NCBI GenBank assembly: GCA_031266415.1 | Contig: JAISBB010000001.1 | Span: forward strand, 285,556 to 349,555 | Direction of reading: 5' to 3' | DNA from: Oscillospiraceae bacterium | GTDB taxonomy: Bacteria > Bacillota > Clostridia > Oscillospirales > Ruminococcaceae | Length of the DNA: 64,000 nucleotides | In this document: positions 35,051 through 56,912 of the stretch, piece after piece | Numbering within the stretch: the first letter of the stretch is position 1 | Layout of the letters: every line of letters begins with the position of its first letter | Program-made: the position numbers and the translations under genes | The notes under the pieces: model-generated | What the model saw: the letters and a program-made list of their open reading frames with translations, nothing else | Databases searched by the model: none | What the model was told of the DNA's origin: nothing

Positions 35051-35126
35051 AATCTGCACATCTGCCTTTTTATGTGAGAGTTTTTTAAAAAATTCGGCAA
35101 AGAACGAAAACACACAAAGCAACTAA

Positions 35127-35152
35127 AAGAGGGTGTAAATATCCACCCTCTT
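35127..35152. terminator. Bidirectional terminator between nifJ and the capsid-like gene
   Basis: AAGAGGGTG (35127-35135) pairs perfectly with CACCCTCTT (35144-35152) across an 8-nt loop. T-rich tracts flank both sides when read on either strand. It lies between convergent genes. Confidence 0.8.
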
Positions 35153-35188
35153 CTTCTAATTGCTTTTAAGTTGCGAAACCACTTTTTA

Positions 35189-36196
35189 TTATTCAGTTGC
35201 TGTGAATTTCAAAATTTTAACTGCAGGTTTGCAAATTCTGGTAAACCCATATGTAGAAACAATTGTTGAACGTTCCAATTGCTTATCAATTAATTTATCG
35301 TGCTCAATGGAAATATCCCCGCTGCAAACCATTTCCAAGGCAAATCGTTTATCTAAAGCAATCATCAAATCTTTAGGGACTAAATTGGATTTAATTAGTT
35401 GCGCACCTAATAACATCATTGCATCGTTTTTAATTTCGAACTTAAAACCACTTTTTGCATCCATAACTTCTGGCAACTGAAGCAGTTGCTTCATCATTTC
35501 TGAGGAAACCAAAATCGTACTCATTTTATATTCATCATCGAAATCATTCCAAAGATTAATCAATTGCTCAAATGCTAAATCCCCCTCTATGGTTTGTACA
35601 TCTGACTTTATTATCTCATCTCCATTAACCAGAACCTCTACTGCACTTTTAAACTGCTGTTTTGCAATTCTCGCTCCAACCTGTTTCAACATGATAGTAA
35701 ACAGCTCTATTTTTTGATTTCTAACAGCTTCATAACTTGCAACCAACATCTGGCCACTTTTATTTAATTTCACCAGATTCTCTTTCAACCTAACATTAAC
35801 ACTGGGGATCTCTACCCCCTCGTTAATCGTTTCTTCTTGCTCCGTTTTATCGTCGCCGTAAATTGTTCGGTAGTCCACACCGTTAATTTGAGTTTTAATT
35901 GCCGTAATATCTCCCAAAGCTGTAACACTTTCTGCCCCAGCTTTAACAGCCCGAAATACATACTCCGGGAACAATGTCGCTGTTTGCGCCGTTCTAAAAA
36001 ATTTCTCAATGCAATCTGCATTAACATCCCTCACTTTAATATCAAACCGCTTAAGTTGCCGCTGATATGCGTCCATGTTTGAAAATTCAGCATCATAACC
36101 TCGAGAGGGATCCAATTCTTCTAAAACTTCTGAAAATCCTTTCCCAGCCACTCTATACATGCTTTTGTCCAACACTACATTTTTATAACAACTCAT
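35189..36196 (-). CDS. HK97-fold phage major capsid-like protein
   Basis: The 335 residues resemble clostridial phage major capsid proteins. An N-terminal region with LEELDPSRGYDAEFSNMDAYQRQ is followed by FRTAQTATLFPEYVFRAV, then the shell domain. The C-terminal half has the alternating pattern of HK97 A and P domains: LLGAQLIKSNLVPKDLMIAL, LDKRFALEMVC, and a final strand KPAVKILKFTATE. The frame is intact, with ATG behind AAGGAG. It follows the protease-like gene by 26 nt, the usual order in phage head modules. No portal, terminase, tail or integrase gene lies nearby. It could be a prophage relic, a satellite or a domesticated shell. The fold call is from pattern recognition, not a search. 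Confidence 0.7.
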   Translation of the reverse strand: MSCYKNVVLDKSMYRVAGKGFSEVLEELDPSRGYDAEFSNMDAYQRQLKRFDIKVRDVNADCIEKFFRTAQTATLFPEYVFRAVKAGAESVTALGDITAIKTQINGVDYRTIYGDDKTEQEETINEGVEIPSVNVRLKENLVKLNKSGQMLVASYEAVRNQKIELFTIMLKQVGARIAKQQFKSAVEVLVNGDEIIKSDVQTIEGDLAFEQLINLWNDFDDEYKMSTILVSSEMMKQLLQLPEVMDAKSGFKFEIKNDAMMLLGAQLIKSNLVPKDLMIALDKRFALEMVCSGDISIEHDKLIDKQLERSTIVSTYGFTRICKPAVKILKFTATE

Positions 36197-36222
36197 CTAA
36201 ATTCTCCTTCCTCTTGCCTGCC

Positions 36223-37212
36223 CTAAATAACAAAATTCTCATTATTCGTCGCTAAATTCCCTTCATCATATGGAAGAGTCTGTACATATCTTTCATTCAA
36301 AAAACTTTTTTCATGTGCCTTTTTACACTCTTGCAACTCTTCCACAGTCATTTTGGCAACAATACTTTTAATTGTTACTAAACTTAAATCCGGCTGCAGC
36401 AAGATATACAATTGCTCAACACTCTTTGCCAACTCACTTTTAAACACATCCACTGTTTCTTGCAACAAGTCTAAATCTTTCAACGCTAAATATATGCTAT
36501 TTAAACATTGTTTCGAGAGATATGCTCCATTTTCGCTAAAGCTTTTAAACCTCTTTTTAAATTCATTTAAATCACCATCCCAAACAAAATGTGAATTCCA
36601 TTTTGCCTCTTTTACCACCCCGGCTTTCTTTTGTGCCGGCACTGCCACAAATGACCATTCATAGGCATCCACAGGGTCATCTAATACCCCACAACACAAT
36701 ACTTTTTGGCCATCTTTCATGTACATTTTGCCTTTCACATGATTACACTTTTGGTTTCTCATGTTTAGACCACAAATCGAACACAAACAGCTTTCAACAT
36801 TGCAGCCGATACTCACTTCTTTTTTTATGCCACCATCAATCTCTAGAATCAAATCTTTGTTTTTTTCATTTTTAATCATATATGCTTTAGCTTTTAACAT
36901 ATAATAATCTTTGCCGTTGTGCACTTTCTTGCTCTCATCCCGCACAACCTCTGTATGAAAAATTCTCGCCATTTGATTTGTTCCTTTGGGTTCGTGGTCA
37001 AAGATCCCAGTTTTACCCAAAAACAAACTTTCTAACTTCTTAAGCGCGTTCAAACTAAAACATTCGAAATCACGGTCCAAATCATTGTCGCAGAGGACTA
37101 AATTGAAAATATATACTTCGTCACTCTGTAAAGGCCGCCTAGTATATTCGTTAATCAACTTAAGATCTTCTCCCACATTTTTTCCGCCCTTGGTAATATA
37201 ACCTTCTTTCAC
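36223..37212 (-). CDS. Prohead serine protease-like protein (capsid maturation)
   Basis: About 329 residues. The N-terminal half matches phage prohead proteases: a core around YIFNLVLCDNDLDRDFECF, the likely catalytic His in GIFDHEPKG, the likely catalytic Ser in KKEVSIGCNVE, and the closing DAYEWSFVAVPAQKKAGV. A Cys/His-rich insertion (CSICG, then KCNHVKGKMY) probably binds zinc. The C-terminal third is helical and may be a scaffold-like tail. GTG at 37212 sits behind AAGGGGG; the frame is open ten codons further. Both catalytic residues and the full frame are kept, so it does not look decayed. A clear promoter is not visible just upstream. Confidence 0.7.
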   Translation of the reverse strand: MKEGYITKGGKNVGEDLKLINEYTRRPLQSDEVYIFNLVLCDNDLDRDFECFSLNALKKLESLFLGKTGIFDHEPKGTNQMARIFHTEVVRDESKKVHNGKDYYMLKAKAYMIKNEKNKDLILEIDGGIKKEVSIGCNVESCLCSICGLNMRNQKCNHVKGKMYMKDGQKVLCCGVLDDPVDAYEWSFVAVPAQKKAGVVKEAKWNSHFVWDGDLNEFKKRFKSFSENGAYLSKQCLNSIYLALKDLDLLQETVDVFKSELAKSVEQLYILLQPDLSLVTIKSIVAKMTVEELQECKKAHEKSFLNERYVQTLPYDEGNLATNNENFVI

Positions 37213-37318
37213 AAAAGCATCCCCCTTTCGAACACAATGCAAAACTAAAACTCAATCAAATTAAAAGTTGCACAAAAATTTGCAACACTGCTCACTTCAA
37301 TAAATATTTTCAGCGGCT

Positions 37319-37386
37319 CTCCCACCAATACGTAAAAAAGCCACGTGCCACACACGGCACGCGACTTTTTTACGTATTGGTGGGAG
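37319..37386 (-). terminator. Very long hairpin that contains the 3' end of tRNA-Tyr
   Basis: Two 31-nt arms pair across a 6-nt loop. In the minus-strand RNA pairing is complete, with two G-U pairs that would be mismatches in DNA. That indicates selection on RNA from this strand. The inner part (GC stem followed by TTTTTT) is an intrinsic terminator for the tRNA operon. The outer part pairs with the last 9 nt of tRNA-Tyr, including CCA. Confidence 0.85.
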
Positions 37387-39528: not shown

Positions 39529-40331
39529 TTACGCTTCATCTAGAAAGGTAATTTGACTTCTGTCGAAAACCTGAAGGGATTCCGGAATTTGATGTCCGTC
39601 CTCTGCTTGGTGCGCGGGGACAGAAACGACCTGACACTCTACCCCGGCGGCCACAGCCTGACGAAACTCGTTGCAAGATTGGGACACACGAACTAGGAAA
39701 TTGGGGTGGCGATCAACGGCGTCTTCCGGAACGACTGAGATTCCGAGTTTCGGATTCAATTGGCTCAATGGAGCAACTGCCGGGTCAACTATCTGTTTCT
39801 CGACGCATTCGCAAATGGCATCAAAATTTTGCTCTGCGTAGATTTTGGCATCGTTTGAAAGCCATGCCTGGAAAACCCAACCCGAAGTTTTTTCCACACC
39901 GAATTCGATTAGCGGTTCATCTGCGGTGATTTGCGCAGCTTCTCGTAGCGTGAAGACTTACCCATGCCCGTGCCGTCCTGCAGTTCCCCTCGAGCGAGAA
40001 TTGCGTTTAATGCGCGTTCGCGAACGTCGCGCTCAGATGGATTACTATCTAAAGGGAGGCCTAACGTTGCACAACCATAACGCGGAACCACTACCCAAAT
40101 AACTTTGCCATCTGCGGCTTTTGCTATTTTTGATGGCGATGTAAAACCGAAATGCGCTGCCCATTGGACCGCGACTTCGCTCGTTGTGGCGCCGGCGGGA
40201 ATCTTAAAATTGGCCACACGGGACGCGAGCTGCTTCAGAACGGGTCATCACCAACGGCGACACAGCCCACACCCAATCCCCAACGTCATTGCTGCAGATA
40301 AAATAATACTGATTAAAGCTTTCTTTTGAAT
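39529..40331 (-). pseudogene. Broken exported-protein gene of unusual base composition
   Basis: A promoter (40373-40401) and an AAGGAGG site precede a signal-peptide-like reading (QKKALISIILSAAMTLGIG) whose only well-placed start is ATT at 40331. That frame meets two consecutive TGA codons. It then continues as an open stretch (VANFKIPAGATTSEVAVQW to about 39909). After a shift of frame it runs through SGWVFQAWLSNDAKIYAEQ to a stop at 39529. The body is clearly richer in GC than the flanking DNA. I do not recognise the protein. The pieces together look like one foreign secreted protein of about 240 residues that has decayed. Confidence 0.45.
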
Positions 40332-52464: not shown

Positions 52465-53325
52465 TCACAACTCACGCGGTTGGCCCCAAAACGAGATGTT
52501 TATGGTTCCAGGGCCACTATGTGCACCAATAACCGGTGCTAATGGAGTTATATACACATCGCAATGGTAAGATTTTTGAATTAATTTCGCGCAATATTCA
52601 GCATCTTCTACACAATCTGCTTGCGAAATGAACATAAACTCGTTTTTATTGCAAGTAGAAAGGCGAGTTTCAATATCGTGGACCATTACATCTAAAGATT
52701 TGCGTCTTCCGCGCGTTTTTGAATACAATGTTAAATTCCCTGCGGCATTAACTGTAAGCAATGGTTTAACTCCCAGCGCAGCACCAACAACAGCAGTAGT
52801 CTTCGAAATTCGCCCTCCGCGTTGAAGGTAAAGCAAACTATCAACTGTAAATAGGTGTTGAACACCTTTTCTATTTTCCTCTAACCAATTTTCAGTTTCT
52901 TCGAAAGTGTTCCCTTCCGCTTGCATTTTAAGTGCTTGGTTGTAGAAAAGTGCTTCACCACTTGCCGCCGCACGCGAATCTATTACTTTTATCTTTCTGT
53001 TCGGGAATTCGCTACAAAGCTCATTTGCAACAGAGCAACACGCATCAAACGAACCACTAATCCCAGAAGAAATCGCTATGTGAATAACATCTAAACCCTC
53101 TTCCAAAAGAGGACGAAATAGATCATGGATAGCCGACTGACTTGGCTGCGAAGTGGAAACGGCAGCACCATTTTTCATACTATCATAAAACTTGCTATAA
53201 TCCGAGCTTTCAAATAAGCGTCCACTCAAAAAACATGGCAGCCTAACAAACCCAACTCGATATTTTTTTAAAAAATGCATGTGTAAATCTGCGCCCGTAT
53301 CCGTTGTAATTACGAAGTCTTTCAC
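52465..53325 (-). CDS. DegV-family fatty-acid-binding protein
   Basis: The 286 residues begin VKDFVITTDTGADLHMHF, the DegV opening, with STSQPSQSAIHDLF, AISSGISGSFDAC and YLQRGGRISKTTAVVGAALGVKPLL further on. Members such as FakB present fatty acids to the kinase FakA. No fakA is visible here. GTG at 53325 shares a base with the murC stop (TAGTG) and is preceded by AAGGAG. Confidence 0.92.
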   Translation of the reverse strand: MKDFVITTDTGADLHMHFLKKYRVGFVRLPCFLSGRLFESSDYSKFYDSMKNGAAVSTSQPSQSAIHDLFRPLLEEGLDVIHIAISSGISGSFDACCSVANELCSEFPNRKIKVIDSRAAASGEALFYNQALKMQAEGNTFEETENWLEENRKGVQHLFTVDSLLYLQRGGRISKTTAVVGAALGVKPLLTVNAAGNLTLYSKTRGRRKSLDVMVHDIETRLSTCNKNEFMFISQADCVEDAEYCAKLIQKSYHCDVYITPLAPVIGAHSGPGTINISFWGQPREL

Positions 53326-54695
53326 TAATACATCTCCTTTAGTTTTTTTGCCAACAACTTCCCCACTTTGTAGATGTTCCCACAACCCAGGGTTACAACA
53401 AGTGTGTTTGGTGGTTTATTTTCAATTACATAATTAACAATGTTATTAAATTCTGCAATATGCGTAAATTTACAGTTTTTTCTTGCCAAGTCCATGGCAG
53501 ACACATTTTCTTCGTTAAATTCTCGCCCCCCCATAATATCGGCTATCACACAGTGGTCTGCCAAAGAAAGAACATCTGCGAATTCATTTATTAACATTTT
53601 CGTTCTGGAATATGTAAAAGGTTGAAATATCGCCCAAACATTTTTATGGCCAAATTGCTTGGCCGTTTTCAATGTTACCCTTATCTCCGCTGGATGGTGA
53701 GCATAATCGTCAACAACAGTCACATCTTTCGAGTTATACAAGATCTCAAAACGCCTGCCAACACCTTCAAAATTTAAAAGTGGTGCACTTAACTCGCCGG
53801 TGGTTAACCCAAACTCGGTGGCAACAACACTGGCTGCAAGAATATTATGTATATTATGGCATCCCGGAATTGAAAAGGTAAATCTACCCAAATTCTTACC
53901 ATGTTTAAACAAGCTAAACCGAGCTTTTGCAAACCCAAACCACTTAATGTCTGAGGCATAATAGTCATTTGACTTTTTTAACCCAAACGAGATTTTTCTT
54001 ACTCTGGCAGGTAAAACCGCCTGCTGCGCATTACCGTCATCCCCGTTATAAATTACCAGATGGTTTGCTTTACAACAAAATTCACAAAACGAATTAATTA
54101 ATCTTGACATTGACCCAAAAAACTCCAAGTGATCGTTGTCAATGTTTAATACAACACTAATTGTTGGCATTAAACTCAAAAACGTATTAGAATATTCACA
54201 AGCTTCACAAACACAAACATCAAAACTGCCAGCACGCCCGGCGCCACCAATCATAGGGAATATTCCTCCAATAATTGCCCCTGTGTTAATATTGTTTTCT
54301 AAAAAAATTTGCGTTAAAAGCGCAGTTGTTGTTGTTTTCCCGTGCGTACCAGCTATACAAATACGATGGTCGAATTTGGAGGTAATTAGTTGCAATATTT
54401 CTGCCCGCGACAATATTTTTAAACCGCTTTCTCTTGCGGCAATTAATTCTGGGTTTGACTTTGGAATTGCAAAACTAAAAACAAGCAACTCAATTCCTTC
54501 AATGTGTGCAGCAGTGTGCTCTAAAAAAACAGATGCCCCAAGTTGGCGAACACGCTCTAACGTGCTACTTTCTTCAACATCTGAACCCGAAATTTCGTAC
54601 CCAAGTTCAATCAAAATTTGAACAATAGGGTAAATTCCAGAGCCACCAATTCCCACAAAATGGATTTTCGTTATTCCCAACTCTAGCGCATCCAT
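53325..54695 (-). CDS. murC: UDP-N-acetylmuramate--L-alanine ligase
   Basis: It adds the first amino acid of the peptidoglycan stem. The 456 residues have IHFVGIGGSGIYPI, the ATP loop CIAGTHGKTTTTALL, DNDHLEFF, VVDDYAHHPAEI and a C-terminal ligase domain ending near VVTLGCGNIYKVG. It is in one direction with murA and the cyclophilin gene, and overlaps degV by one base. Confidence 0.96.
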   Translation of the reverse strand: MDALELGITKIHFVGIGGSGIYPIVQILIELGYEISGSDVEESSTLERVRQLGASVFLEHTAAHIEGIELLVFSFAIPKSNPELIAARESGLKILSRAEILQLITSKFDHRICIAGTHGKTTTTALLTQIFLENNINTGAIIGGIFPMIGGAGRAGSFDVCVCEACEYSNTFLSLMPTISVVLNIDNDHLEFFGSMSRLINSFCEFCCKANHLVIYNGDDGNAQQAVLPARVRKISFGLKKSNDYYASDIKWFGFAKARFSLFKHGKNLGRFTFSIPGCHNIHNILAASVVATEFGLTTGELSAPLLNFEGVGRRFEILYNSKDVTVVDDYAHHPAEIRVTLKTAKQFGHKNVWAIFQPFTYSRTKMLINEFADVLSLADHCVIADIMGGREFNEENVSAMDLARKNCKFTHIAEFNNIVNYVIENKPPNTLVVTLGCGNIYKVGKLLAKKLKEMY

Positions 54696-54785
54696 TTTAA
54701 ATCACTCCCAAAAACACCTAACTCGCACTCTCTTTAGGCTCTGTAACCTCTCTTTTCTCTTTTTCTTCTAATTTAATCTCTTCCT

Positions 54786-55571
54786 TTACAATTCCCACGT
54801 GCTTGGTTCTTCATCTTCTTTGTGGTATTCACCTAATTCTATGCCAATTATTTTAATTTCGTCTTTCGGCTTATCATTTTCATCAGTTTCACATATAGAA
54901 ATAGCATCTACCACATCCATCCCAGAAAAAACATCTGCGAACACTGTGTGCTTCCCATCTAAATGCGGGCACCCTCCAAACCTTTCATAAGCCGACTGCA
55001 TTACTTCCTCGTGCTTGTTCATTGGCCCACTAGGTGGGAAAGACAAGTCATCTGAATTCGCAAGCACAACAAAAAATTGGCTGGTGTTTGTATTTGGACC
55101 AATATTGGCCATTGAAACAGCAGCACGTAAATGAATTAACCGAAAAGGAAATGCAATTTCGTCCTCGAAATATCCCCCATATATACTTTCACCACCAGTC
55201 CCTGTACCTGTTGGGTCGCCAGTTTGAATTATAAATCCAGGTATAACCCTGTGAAATAAGCAATTGTCAAAGTAACCACGCTTCGCCAAATTTAAAAAAT
55301 TCTCGCAAGTTTGGGGTGCACATTTCAGGAAAAATCGAATTTTTATATCGCCCAAACTCGTTTTAATTATTGCTATTTGGTCTCCTTCATTCGGCGGATA
55401 CAATTGAAGCAACTCTAAGTTCTGGTTCGGGTTCAATTCTTCTTCACGAAACAATTCTTCTTTAATTTGCTCTTGTTCTCGGCGCATAGTTTCCTCATCA
55501 TTATATAAGCAGCCAGAAAGATATGACACACCAACCAATGTCAAAATCAGCAAACTTTTCTTAAATTTCAT
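54786..55571 (-). CDS. Peptidyl-prolyl isomerase lipoprotein (cyclophilin)
   Basis: ATG at 55571 behind GGTGGAGGG. An N-terminal lipoprotein signal ends in SYLSGC, so the mature protein is lipid-anchored outside the membrane. The cyclophilin domain has IKTSLGDIKIRFF, LFHRVIPGFIIQTGDPTGTG and NTNTSQFFVVL, and would help fold exported proteins. About 261 residues. A stop-free, highly charged stretch of 23 codons continues in the -1 frame straight after the TAA, down to about 54718. The native C-terminus may therefore have been cut by a one-base change. Confidence 0.93.
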   Translation of the reverse strand: MKFKKSLLILTLVGVSYLSGCLYNDEETMRREQEQIKEELFREEELNPNQNLELLQLYPPNEGDQIAIIKTSLGDIKIRFFLKCAPQTCENFLNLAKRGYFDNCLFHRVIPGFIIQTGDPTGTGTGGESIYGGYFEDEIAFPFRLIHLRAAVSMANIGPNTNTSQFFVVLANSDDLSFPPSGPMNKHEEVMQSAYERFGGCPHLDGKHTVFADVFSGMDVVDAISICETDENDKPKDEIKIIGIELGEYHKEDEEPSTWEL

Positions 55572-55628
55572 AATATCCCTCCACCTACCTCTGCAACTAC
55601 ACTTCTGAAACAATGGTAGATCAAATCT

Positions 55629-56912
55629 TCAAGCAGTTTGTTCACTTGATTTCAACGGGTCAGCAACTACAAAAATATTTGCACCCAGTCCACAAAATTT
55701 CCCCACTATATTCTCATAACCACGTTCAATGTGCTCAACACTTTCAAGTTCTGTGGTCCCGCTTGCAGCAAGGGCTGCAACCAACAGGGCTGCACCTGCA
55801 CGCAAATCTGGAGCTTTAACCGGGGCCGCATTAAGTTCAGGAACACCTTCAACAATAACTGTTCTCTCGTTAACCTGCAACTTAGCCCCTAAGCGAATAA
55901 GTTCGCCTACATACTTAAAGCGATTTTCCCAAATCCCTTCTGTAACTACACTCGTTCCTTGCGCTAAAGAAAGAAGCGCAACCATTTGCGGTTGCAGGTC
56001 TGTTGGGAACCCTGGATATGGCATAGTTTTTATGTTTGTGGAAGAAAGATTAACGGGCGCTTGAATACAAACAGAATCATCAAATTCTGTAATAACAGCC
56101 CCGATGTTCTTAAGCTTATCTGTAATAGCATAAAGATGCCGCGGGATAATATTTTTAATTTCTATGCACCCACGAGTTGCCATTGCACCCAACATAAAAG
56201 TTCCGGCCTCTATTTGATCTGGGATAATAGAATAAGAACGGCCCGTTAGAGTTTTCACACCTTTTATTCTAATAATGTCAGTTCCCGCACCAAGTATATC
56301 TGCACCCAACGAATTCAAAAAATTAGCAACATCAACAACGTGAGGTTCTTTCGCAGCATTTTCTAGGACAGTGGTTCCTGTTGCATAAACACTTGCCAAC
56401 ATAACATTAATCGTTGCTCCTACAGAGACTGTATCAAAACAAATTTCAGTGCCAGTAAGTTTTTTTGCGGTCGCTTTTATCATGCCATTTTCGGCTGATA
56501 TTTCTACTCCAAGTGCTCGCAATCCTTTTATGTGCTGATCAATTGGCCTTGCTCCAATACTGCAACCTCCAGGCATAGAAACCGTTACCTGCGGGAATTT
56601 ACTAATTAATGCCCCAAGCAAATAATAAGAAGCACGCATTCTTTTTGCTGCTTCATAAGGAACCACCGGACACCCCAATTCAGAAGAGTCGATAATAATT
56701 GTGTGCTTATCTAACCTTGTTACCTTCGCGCCCAACCCAGAAATTATAGCAACCAATGTATGCACGTCGCGGATATCTGGAACATTTTCAATGGTACTTG
56801 GTGTGTTTGCCATTAAAGCCGCTGGGATAATTGCCACAGCGGCATTTTTAGCACCACTAATCACCACACTACCATTTAAAGCGGTACCACCACGCACAAA
56901 AAAATTCGCCAA
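55629..56912 (-). CDS. murA: UDP-N-acetylglucosamine 1-carboxyvinyltransferase
   Basis: The first committed step of peptidoglycan synthesis. The 427 residues show GGTALNGSVVISGAKNAA, the fosfomycin-target Cys in MPGGCSIGARPIDQH, and DQIEAGTFMLGA. The C-terminal LRAGAALLVAALAASGTTEL and HIERGYENI are present. The cysteine is intact, so natural fosfomycin resistance by Cys-to-Asp change is not expected. Confidence 0.97.
   Translation of the reverse strand: MANFFVRGGTALNGSVVISGAKNAAVAIIPAALMANTPSTIENVPDIRDVHTLVAIISGLGAKVTRLDKHTIIIDSSELGCPVVPYEAAKRMRASYYLLGALISKFPQVTVSMPGGCSIGARPIDQHIKGLRALGVEISAENGMIKATAKKLTGTEICFDTVSVGATINVMLASVYATGTTVLENAAKEPHVVDVANFLNSLGADILGAGTDIIRIKGVKTLTGRSYSIIPDQIEAGTFMLGAMATRGCIEIKNIIPRHLYAITDKLKNIGAVITEFDDSVCIQAPVNLSSTNIKTMPYPGFPTDLQPQMVALLSLAQGTSVVTEGIWENRFKYVGELIRLGAKLQVNERTVIVEGVPELNAAPVKAPDLRAGAALLVAALAASGTTELESVEHIERGYENIVGKFCGLGANIFVVADPLKSSEQTA

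Follow-up and report, generated by a model that had tools for sequence, protein, structure and literature searches.

A phage capsid and protease gene pair as the probable displaced middle of a head-and-packaging cassette in a reduced Oscillospirales genome

Why would a small bacterial genome keep a phage capsid gene and a prohead-protease-like gene side by side, between the gene for pyruvate:ferredoxin oxidoreductase (nifJ) and a tRNA-Tyr/tRNA-Thr operon? The pair lies in a 64,000-nucleotide stretch of DNA (contig JAISBB010000001.1, henceforth the window) from an Oscillospiraceae bacterium whose genome of 736,233 bases on seven contigs is 97.78% complete. A first-pass annotation had described two intact frames with ribosome sites at this location and no other phage genes, and had proposed either a domesticated shell-forming cassette with its own protease or a very recent relic. 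Indeed, both open reading frames (ORFs) are full-length, each is preceded by a Shine-Dalgarno motif, and the neighbours are those described. With rather more confidence than doubt, we take the pair to be the middle part, since displaced, of a head-and-packaging cassette of phage origin; its genes now lie in three places, and together they would form a domesticated system that resembles gene transfer agents (GTAs) and would pack cell DNA. This bacterium probably makes virus-like heads, which would package its own DNA.

Head and packaging genes at three places

The window genome (G000) is one of four genomes of its genus (g1), along with G001 and G002, the metagenome-assembled genomes Ncb351_bin1 and Gsp477_bin88, and G003; G113 and G199 belong to a second small-genome genus (g111). 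Within the window, the absence of other phage genes held for structural genes: a PHROG scan of 41 chosen window proteins returned no structural family besides those of the pair among the 25 of 43 matched families that were listed (several unnamed), and one amidase matched an endolysin family. At the scale of the genome the claim fails. TerL was found at 194.7 kb of contig C4 (one copy with a family-relative query, 54% to the copy at locus L028), 125 kb from the pair at 320.7-322.8 kb of the same contig, and near it lie TerS and homologues of connectors (c125, c108 and c238), gp25, gpU, the hub, baseplate J, tail I and fibres. The portal gene, of which one intact copy was found with a portal query (47%), lies on another contig, at 107.8 kb of C5, where by our reading it stands alone amid transporter genes. 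A stand-alone pair is thus ruled out by TerL and portal elsewhere in the same genome.

The gene order in relatives is TerS-TerL-portal-protease-capsid-c125 (connectors)-hub, with or without sheath and baseplate, and a decoration-like ORF often precedes the capsid gene. In the window genome TerL and c125 still adjoin, and portal, protease and capsid are gone from between them. Because these genes lie between TerL and c125 in relatives, we take the window pair and the portal to be the missing middle of the cassette. A search for the pair outside prophages, as the first-pass annotation had suggested, found it intact and apart from TerL and portal in G001, G002, G113 and G199 as well as in G000. 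TerS-TerL, portal and pair occupy three separate places in both G001 and G113, the pair and TerS-TerL are apart in G199, TerL is cut by a contig end in G002, and in G003 TerL and portal point in opposite directions with 2 kb between them. In G000, G001 and G113 the frames of all five genes (TerS, TerL, portal, protease, capsid) are open. An intact prophage would be one contiguous set of structural, integration and lysis genes; in the window genome three separate places, spread over two contigs, hold the capsid, the portal and TerL. No integrase was seen in the stretches read, and no genome-wide search for one was made.

In G001 (L020) the capsid gene is followed at once by a degV-murC-PPIase-murA block; in the window this block stands at 52465-56912, ~15 kb away from the pair, which suggests a local rearrangement. 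Genes that we read as murI and ddl adjoin TerL in G001 and lie ~4.4 kb from the pair in G002 (L055 7603-11207, L021 8982-18145), a hint of one ancestral site. In g111, a decoration-protein-like ORF of 127-129 aa stands beside the pair in G113 and G199 (L095 8418-8801, L097 6654-7043), and none was matched beside the pair in g1. Both g111 genomes also carry, ~1.2 kb downstream of the capsid gene, a gene that by eye only we take to be reverse-transcriptase-like (L095 11896-12948, L097 10245-10976).

Fold, family and constraint of the head genes

By fold and family profile, the window capsid is an HK97-fold major capsid protein. It matches phrog_3922 (major head protein, E 1.1e-74) and PF25209 (E 2.5e-9), and its AlphaFold2 model (pLDDT 85.4, pTM 0.84) recovers the HK97 fold in a Foldseek search (1ohg, E 1.1e-11); a sequence search of solved structures gave a single weak match (9m66_A, E 3.5e-4). 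Structure prediction, proposed earlier for both proteins, was less telling for the protease-like protein, whose model (pLDDT 79.4, pTM 0.55) has no significant match in the PDB (best E 0.24) and whose sequence has no match to the Pfam S78 prohead protease family. This protein matches phrog_16951 ('unknown function', E 3.9e-90) and is 40.7% identical over 194 aa to the 'major head and protease protein' of Flavonifractor phage Cormatin. The His and Ser noted before as catalytic are kept: H73 and S134 are invariant in 13/13 and 23/23 aligned sequences, and E185 is likewise invariant in 23/23; putative roles are assigned to all three from known protease motifs. A C-x2-C...C-x-H cluster (C144, C147, C156, H158) is invariant in the same 23/23 sequences, so that the Cys/His insertion, singled out earlier as an oddity of this copy, is a trait of the protease family and was dropped as a peculiarity. 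The C-terminal helical tail (residues 215-306) may be a fused scaffold.

Selection was measured as the ratio of nonsynonymous to synonymous substitution rates (dN/dS), by the Nei-Gojobori method with our own script. Between G113 and G199, dN/dS is 0.048 for capsid, 0.064 for protease, 0.070 for TerL and 0.072 for TerS, and between G001 and G003 it is 0.065 for TerL, 0.092 for TerS (dS 1.35) and 0.039 for portal. These seven close-pair comparisons span 0.039-0.092, with dS up to 1.35; neighbour genes outside the cassette gave 0.046-0.337 (15 genes, G113 versus G199) and 0.045-0.147 (five genes, G001 versus G003). We conclude that strong purifying selection acts on the scattered copies where close genome pairs could be compared, and the values for the pair, far from the ratio near 1 named beforehand as the mark of a decaying remnant, contradict the very recent relic. 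Comparisons that involve the window species are at or close to saturation, and selection on its own copies is therefore read from their intact frames and from the 58-72% amino-acid identity of its capsid, protease, TerL and portal to those of genus-mates.

The same values bear on a domesticated shell only, that is, an encapsulin-like or protein-cargo compartment in a genome that keeps the other head genes for something else or as leftovers. Domestication itself is supported, with the pair intact away from TerL and portal and constrained; a stand-alone shell is not the best reading, because TerL, TerS and portal, all present in this genome, would be superfluous for holding cargo. The constraint on TerL (0.065-0.070) and on portal (0.039) equals that on the pair, and the genomes with the pair retain them too. 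Encapsulins, too, are cell-encoded HK97-fold shells, but they come without packaging genes, whereas the window genome retains TerL, TerS, portal and protease. We thus hold a cargo shell to be unlikely, and a weaker reading than the GTA-like system.

The packaging proteins show both conservation and loss. The Walker A, Walker B and nuclease aspartate motifs of TerL are conserved in G000, G001, G003, G113 and G199. PF03592 is matched from position 1 by the TerS of 5/6 long relatives, at positions 65-129 of 141 only by that of G001, and not at all by those of G000 and G113. In the TerS alignment, for which L096 and L165 were trimmed at the start beforehand, the N-terminal half is absent in G000, G001, G003, G113 and 5/12 other relatives, and the C-terminal half is kept; the loss is seen by profile and alignment for G000, G001 and G113, and by alignment only for G003. 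The N-terminal half of this TerS family recognises DNA, and what has been lost is likely this DNA-recognition part.

Gene trees of TerL, capsid and protease group g1 and g111 together (TerL 100/99, capsid 100/100, protease 100/100). Each of g1, g111, g4 and g149 forms one group in every tree with at least two of its rows, and g14 does so in the TerL tree and, weakly, in the portal tree.

A number of observations weigh against a maintained GTA-like system, and some of them are what would be expected of a decaying prophage that rearrangement broke up and dispersed and that is still losing parts. The baseplate block of the window genome is partly eroded (J ~185 of 357 aa, tail I ~96 of 193) and sheath was found in 0/4 genomes of the window genus, so that delivery may have been lost; the portal of G199 is split over two overlapping frames (G199:C29:34632-35781), by decay or by assembly error; and the site of the pair varies between species. 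No portal match was found in G002 (89% complete) and no capsid match in G003 (68% complete), every genome compared being a draft. Two further finite comparisons, both near saturation, gave higher dN/dS, namely 0.172 for capsid between G000 and G113 (dS 1.84) and 0.210 for TerL between G000 and G002 (dS 1.65). In codon usage the phage genes come less close to the host (0.45-0.67) than do ten host genes which are also part of the reference (0.79-0.93). In the trees, g14 is not one group for capsid and protease, the capsid tree pairs G000 with G002 (98/88) within g1 and the protease tree G000 with G001 (97/88), and AT-rich, long-branched sequences could cause the grouping of g1 with g111. Against decay stand the five open frames in G000, G001 and G113 and the dN/dS of 0.04-0.09 in close pairs, which contradict decay as far as the head genes are concerned, and we regard a decaying prophage as very unlikely.

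Relatives across the order

The capsid profile matches 63 of the 297 order genomes that are at least 90% complete, with a single match in 61 of the 63, and TerL is matched at E<=0.001 in 112/297 order genomes and 253/396 family genomes, weak matches and ordinary prophages included. Fifteen genomes were looked at further. They comprise the window genus and others off the TerL-positive list, mostly small genomes, so that TerL is present in 15/15 by choice, and 123 genomes without a TerL match lie outside that listing; capsid was found in 14/15 and sheath in 2/15. Upstream of the compact cassette, at a distance of at most 1.3 kb, 6/8 g4/g14 genomes carry an LCP-type gene, and a site with the order argG-hflX-[element]-degV is common to three genera (in one of them the locus ends within argG).

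The form of the element that occupies this argG-hflX-element-degV site (L033 3499-16350, L161, L163) includes a block of baseplate and fibre genes and is itself a GTA candidate.

The first-pass annotation had named, as a finding that would refute it, relatives that carry the pair only inside full prophages. This is not what was seen: most of the relatives examined show a structural cassette beside host genes or at a contig end, although there is L040, a distant relative (28% identity) that by our reading is a complete prophage. IMG/VR yielded 361 relatives, of which 80 were kept. Forty of the loci reach 10 kb or more; in 31 of these, less than 1 kb falls beyond the stretch that the cassette matches cover, and in the others up to 6 kb. 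Two of the 80 kept contigs exceed 20 kb and were analysed in part. Five 'Bacteriophage sp.' records from human faeces match the capsid, four of which were read (L172, which is MT835508.1, and L173-L175). In three of the four, the cassette lies beside genes that we take by reading to belong to the host (operons for ribosomal proteins and Rnf in MT835508.1; rpe; recG and thyA), and in the fourth beside a thioredoxin gene. By this reading, at least three of the faecal 'phage' contigs are pieces of host chromosome around the cassette. The portion of the Mexican virus-like-particle study consulted (PMC8361208) shows no accession link to MT835508.1.

A proposed DNA-packaging system and its setting

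In the literature searched, with subscription papers and preprints outside its scope, FpGTA of Faecalibacterium was the only GTA of gut Clostridia that we recognised among the papers found, which also include PMC10538166 on clostridia that produce solvents, and no order-wide Oscillospirales GTA described as such was found. The available portion of the FpGTA report (PMC12946183) describes two loci ~125 kb apart, with a roughly ten-gene operon that includes TerS, TerL, portal, scaffold and capsid, no identifiable tail and no replication genes, a TerS without an obvious DNA-binding domain, and packaging of 8.4-8.9 kb of seemingly random host DNA. The window genome resembles it in the 125 kb between TerL block and pair and in the TerS of G000, G001 and G113, which also lacks an obvious DNA-binding domain. 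It differs in its three loci as against two, in its 0.74-Mb genome, likely of another family, and in that lysis genes are known for FpGTA, the window system being set beside it by description and from genes alone. The TerL matches in f13 were tried as FpGTA loci and rejected: L154 and L155 are by our reading ordinary prophages with other head genes, L156-L158 carry TerL (L158 also TerS and a weak sheath) without the cassette's capsid, and L159-L161 were seen in part. None of the 120 matches listed in each of two protein searches bears the name Faecalibacterium, most being nameless; Caproiciproducens, a cultivable relative with a capsid homologue, is among the names that do appear. Faecalibacterium and the window species belong to one order and likely to different families.

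GTAs more generally, in the sections of a review drawn on here (PMC9662315), have tailed-phage-derived particle genes that are fully endogenised, often at multiple loci, and mostly vertically inherited; they package mostly random host DNA in a head too small for their own gene set and deliver it to recipients. Like RcGTA and other recognised GTAs, the window set encodes tailed-phage particle proteins, identified by PHROG and Pfam for capsid, portal, TerL and baseplate and by structure for capsid, and is endogenised over three loci each in G000, G001 and G113, which are presumably too far apart to share one head. By contrast, recognised GTAs in the same sections are mainly those of Alphaproteobacteria and Brachyspira and are experimentally validated (PMC9662315), whereas the window set is known from its genes, and its capsid matches theirs by fold only. 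Cormatin (ON453905.1) is a 35-kb phage record to which the window capsid has no match at E 1e-5. The capsid-forming phage-inducible chromosomal island EcCI2 (9gyi) is a mobile satellite, unlike the window system, for which no integrase was seen in the stretches read.

Because reduced genomes tend to shed what selection does not hold, the retained, scattered head and packaging set suggests a real job. The packing of cell DNA is the simplest such job, since capsid, protease, portal, TerL and an N-terminally reduced TerS would all be needed for it, as in FpGTA. In the mechanism we propose, the protease, with its helical tail as putative scaffold, would co-assemble with the capsid protein on the portal and then clear the head interior, TerL would pump DNA through the portal into small heads, and a TerS without its N-terminal half would no longer limit packaging to phage DNA. 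The cassette would have been long domesticated in the order, losing tail parts in some genera and breaking into three loci in the small-genome lineages, with head and packaging genes staying under selection through the dispersal. Expression, assembly, DNA packaging, release and transfer are all predicted for this system.

DNA might also be packaged and not delivered, the particle being of a headful transducing kind or a killing one like PBSX or a tailocin. In full relatives the tail is contractile, with sheath, tube and baseplate J, and the FpGTA authors, in the available portion of their report (PMC12946183), leave the same possibility open for FpGTA. Given that the window genus keeps the packaging motor while sheath was not found in any of its four genomes, we judge such a particle to be distinctly unlikely here.

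A bolder extension of the GTA-like reading, which we put forward tentatively and do not yet favour, is that an Oscillospirales-wide GTA has been kept through genome reduction. Cells of ~0.74 Mb would then produce heads with few tail parts and filled with DNA, by which random pieces of chromosome would pass among the symbionts of a single protist host, slowing mutational decay. Bins sharing sample prefixes with Ncb351 and Gsp477 come, in the excerpt consulted, from the lower termites Neotermes cubanus and Glyptotermes (PMC11707648), and Takahashi et al. describe, in the portion available, 1.0-1.3 Mb protist endosymbionts in GTDB Acutalibacteraceae (PMC10579323). The window species is likely a termite-gut symbiont of this kind, and should the system prove to be a GTA, it would have been kept by a bacterium that is confined to its host and has few other ways to exchange genes. 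GTA-like packaging is also mentioned for Oscillospiraceae such as Onthomonas, with no operon named in the available portion (PMC12946183); the window cassette is a candidate gene set for it, testable in cultured relatives.

Table 1. Window positions of the pair and of the signals around it
Feature	Position	Strand	Basis
Major capsid protein, HK97 fold, 335 aa	35189..36196	-	ATG start; PHROG, Pfam, AlphaFold2, Foldseek
Prohead-protease-like protein, 329 aa	36223..37212	-	GTG start; phrog_16951, Cormatin similarity, invariant residues
Ribosome-binding site of capsid gene (Shine-Dalgarno AAGGAG)	36204..36209	-	Sequence
Ribosome-binding site of protease gene, AAAGGGGG	37221..37228	-	Sequence
Terminator-like hairpin setting the tRNA operon apart from the pair	37340..37358	-	Hairpin in sequence
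Terminator-like hairpin between nifJ and the pair, found on both strands	35125..35154	.	

Elsewhere in the window, two ORFs on the minus strand (39529-40217; 122 and 102 aa) have no Pfam match and lie in a patch of ~52% GC within a region of 38-40% GC, possibly a foreign insert or an assembly artefact.
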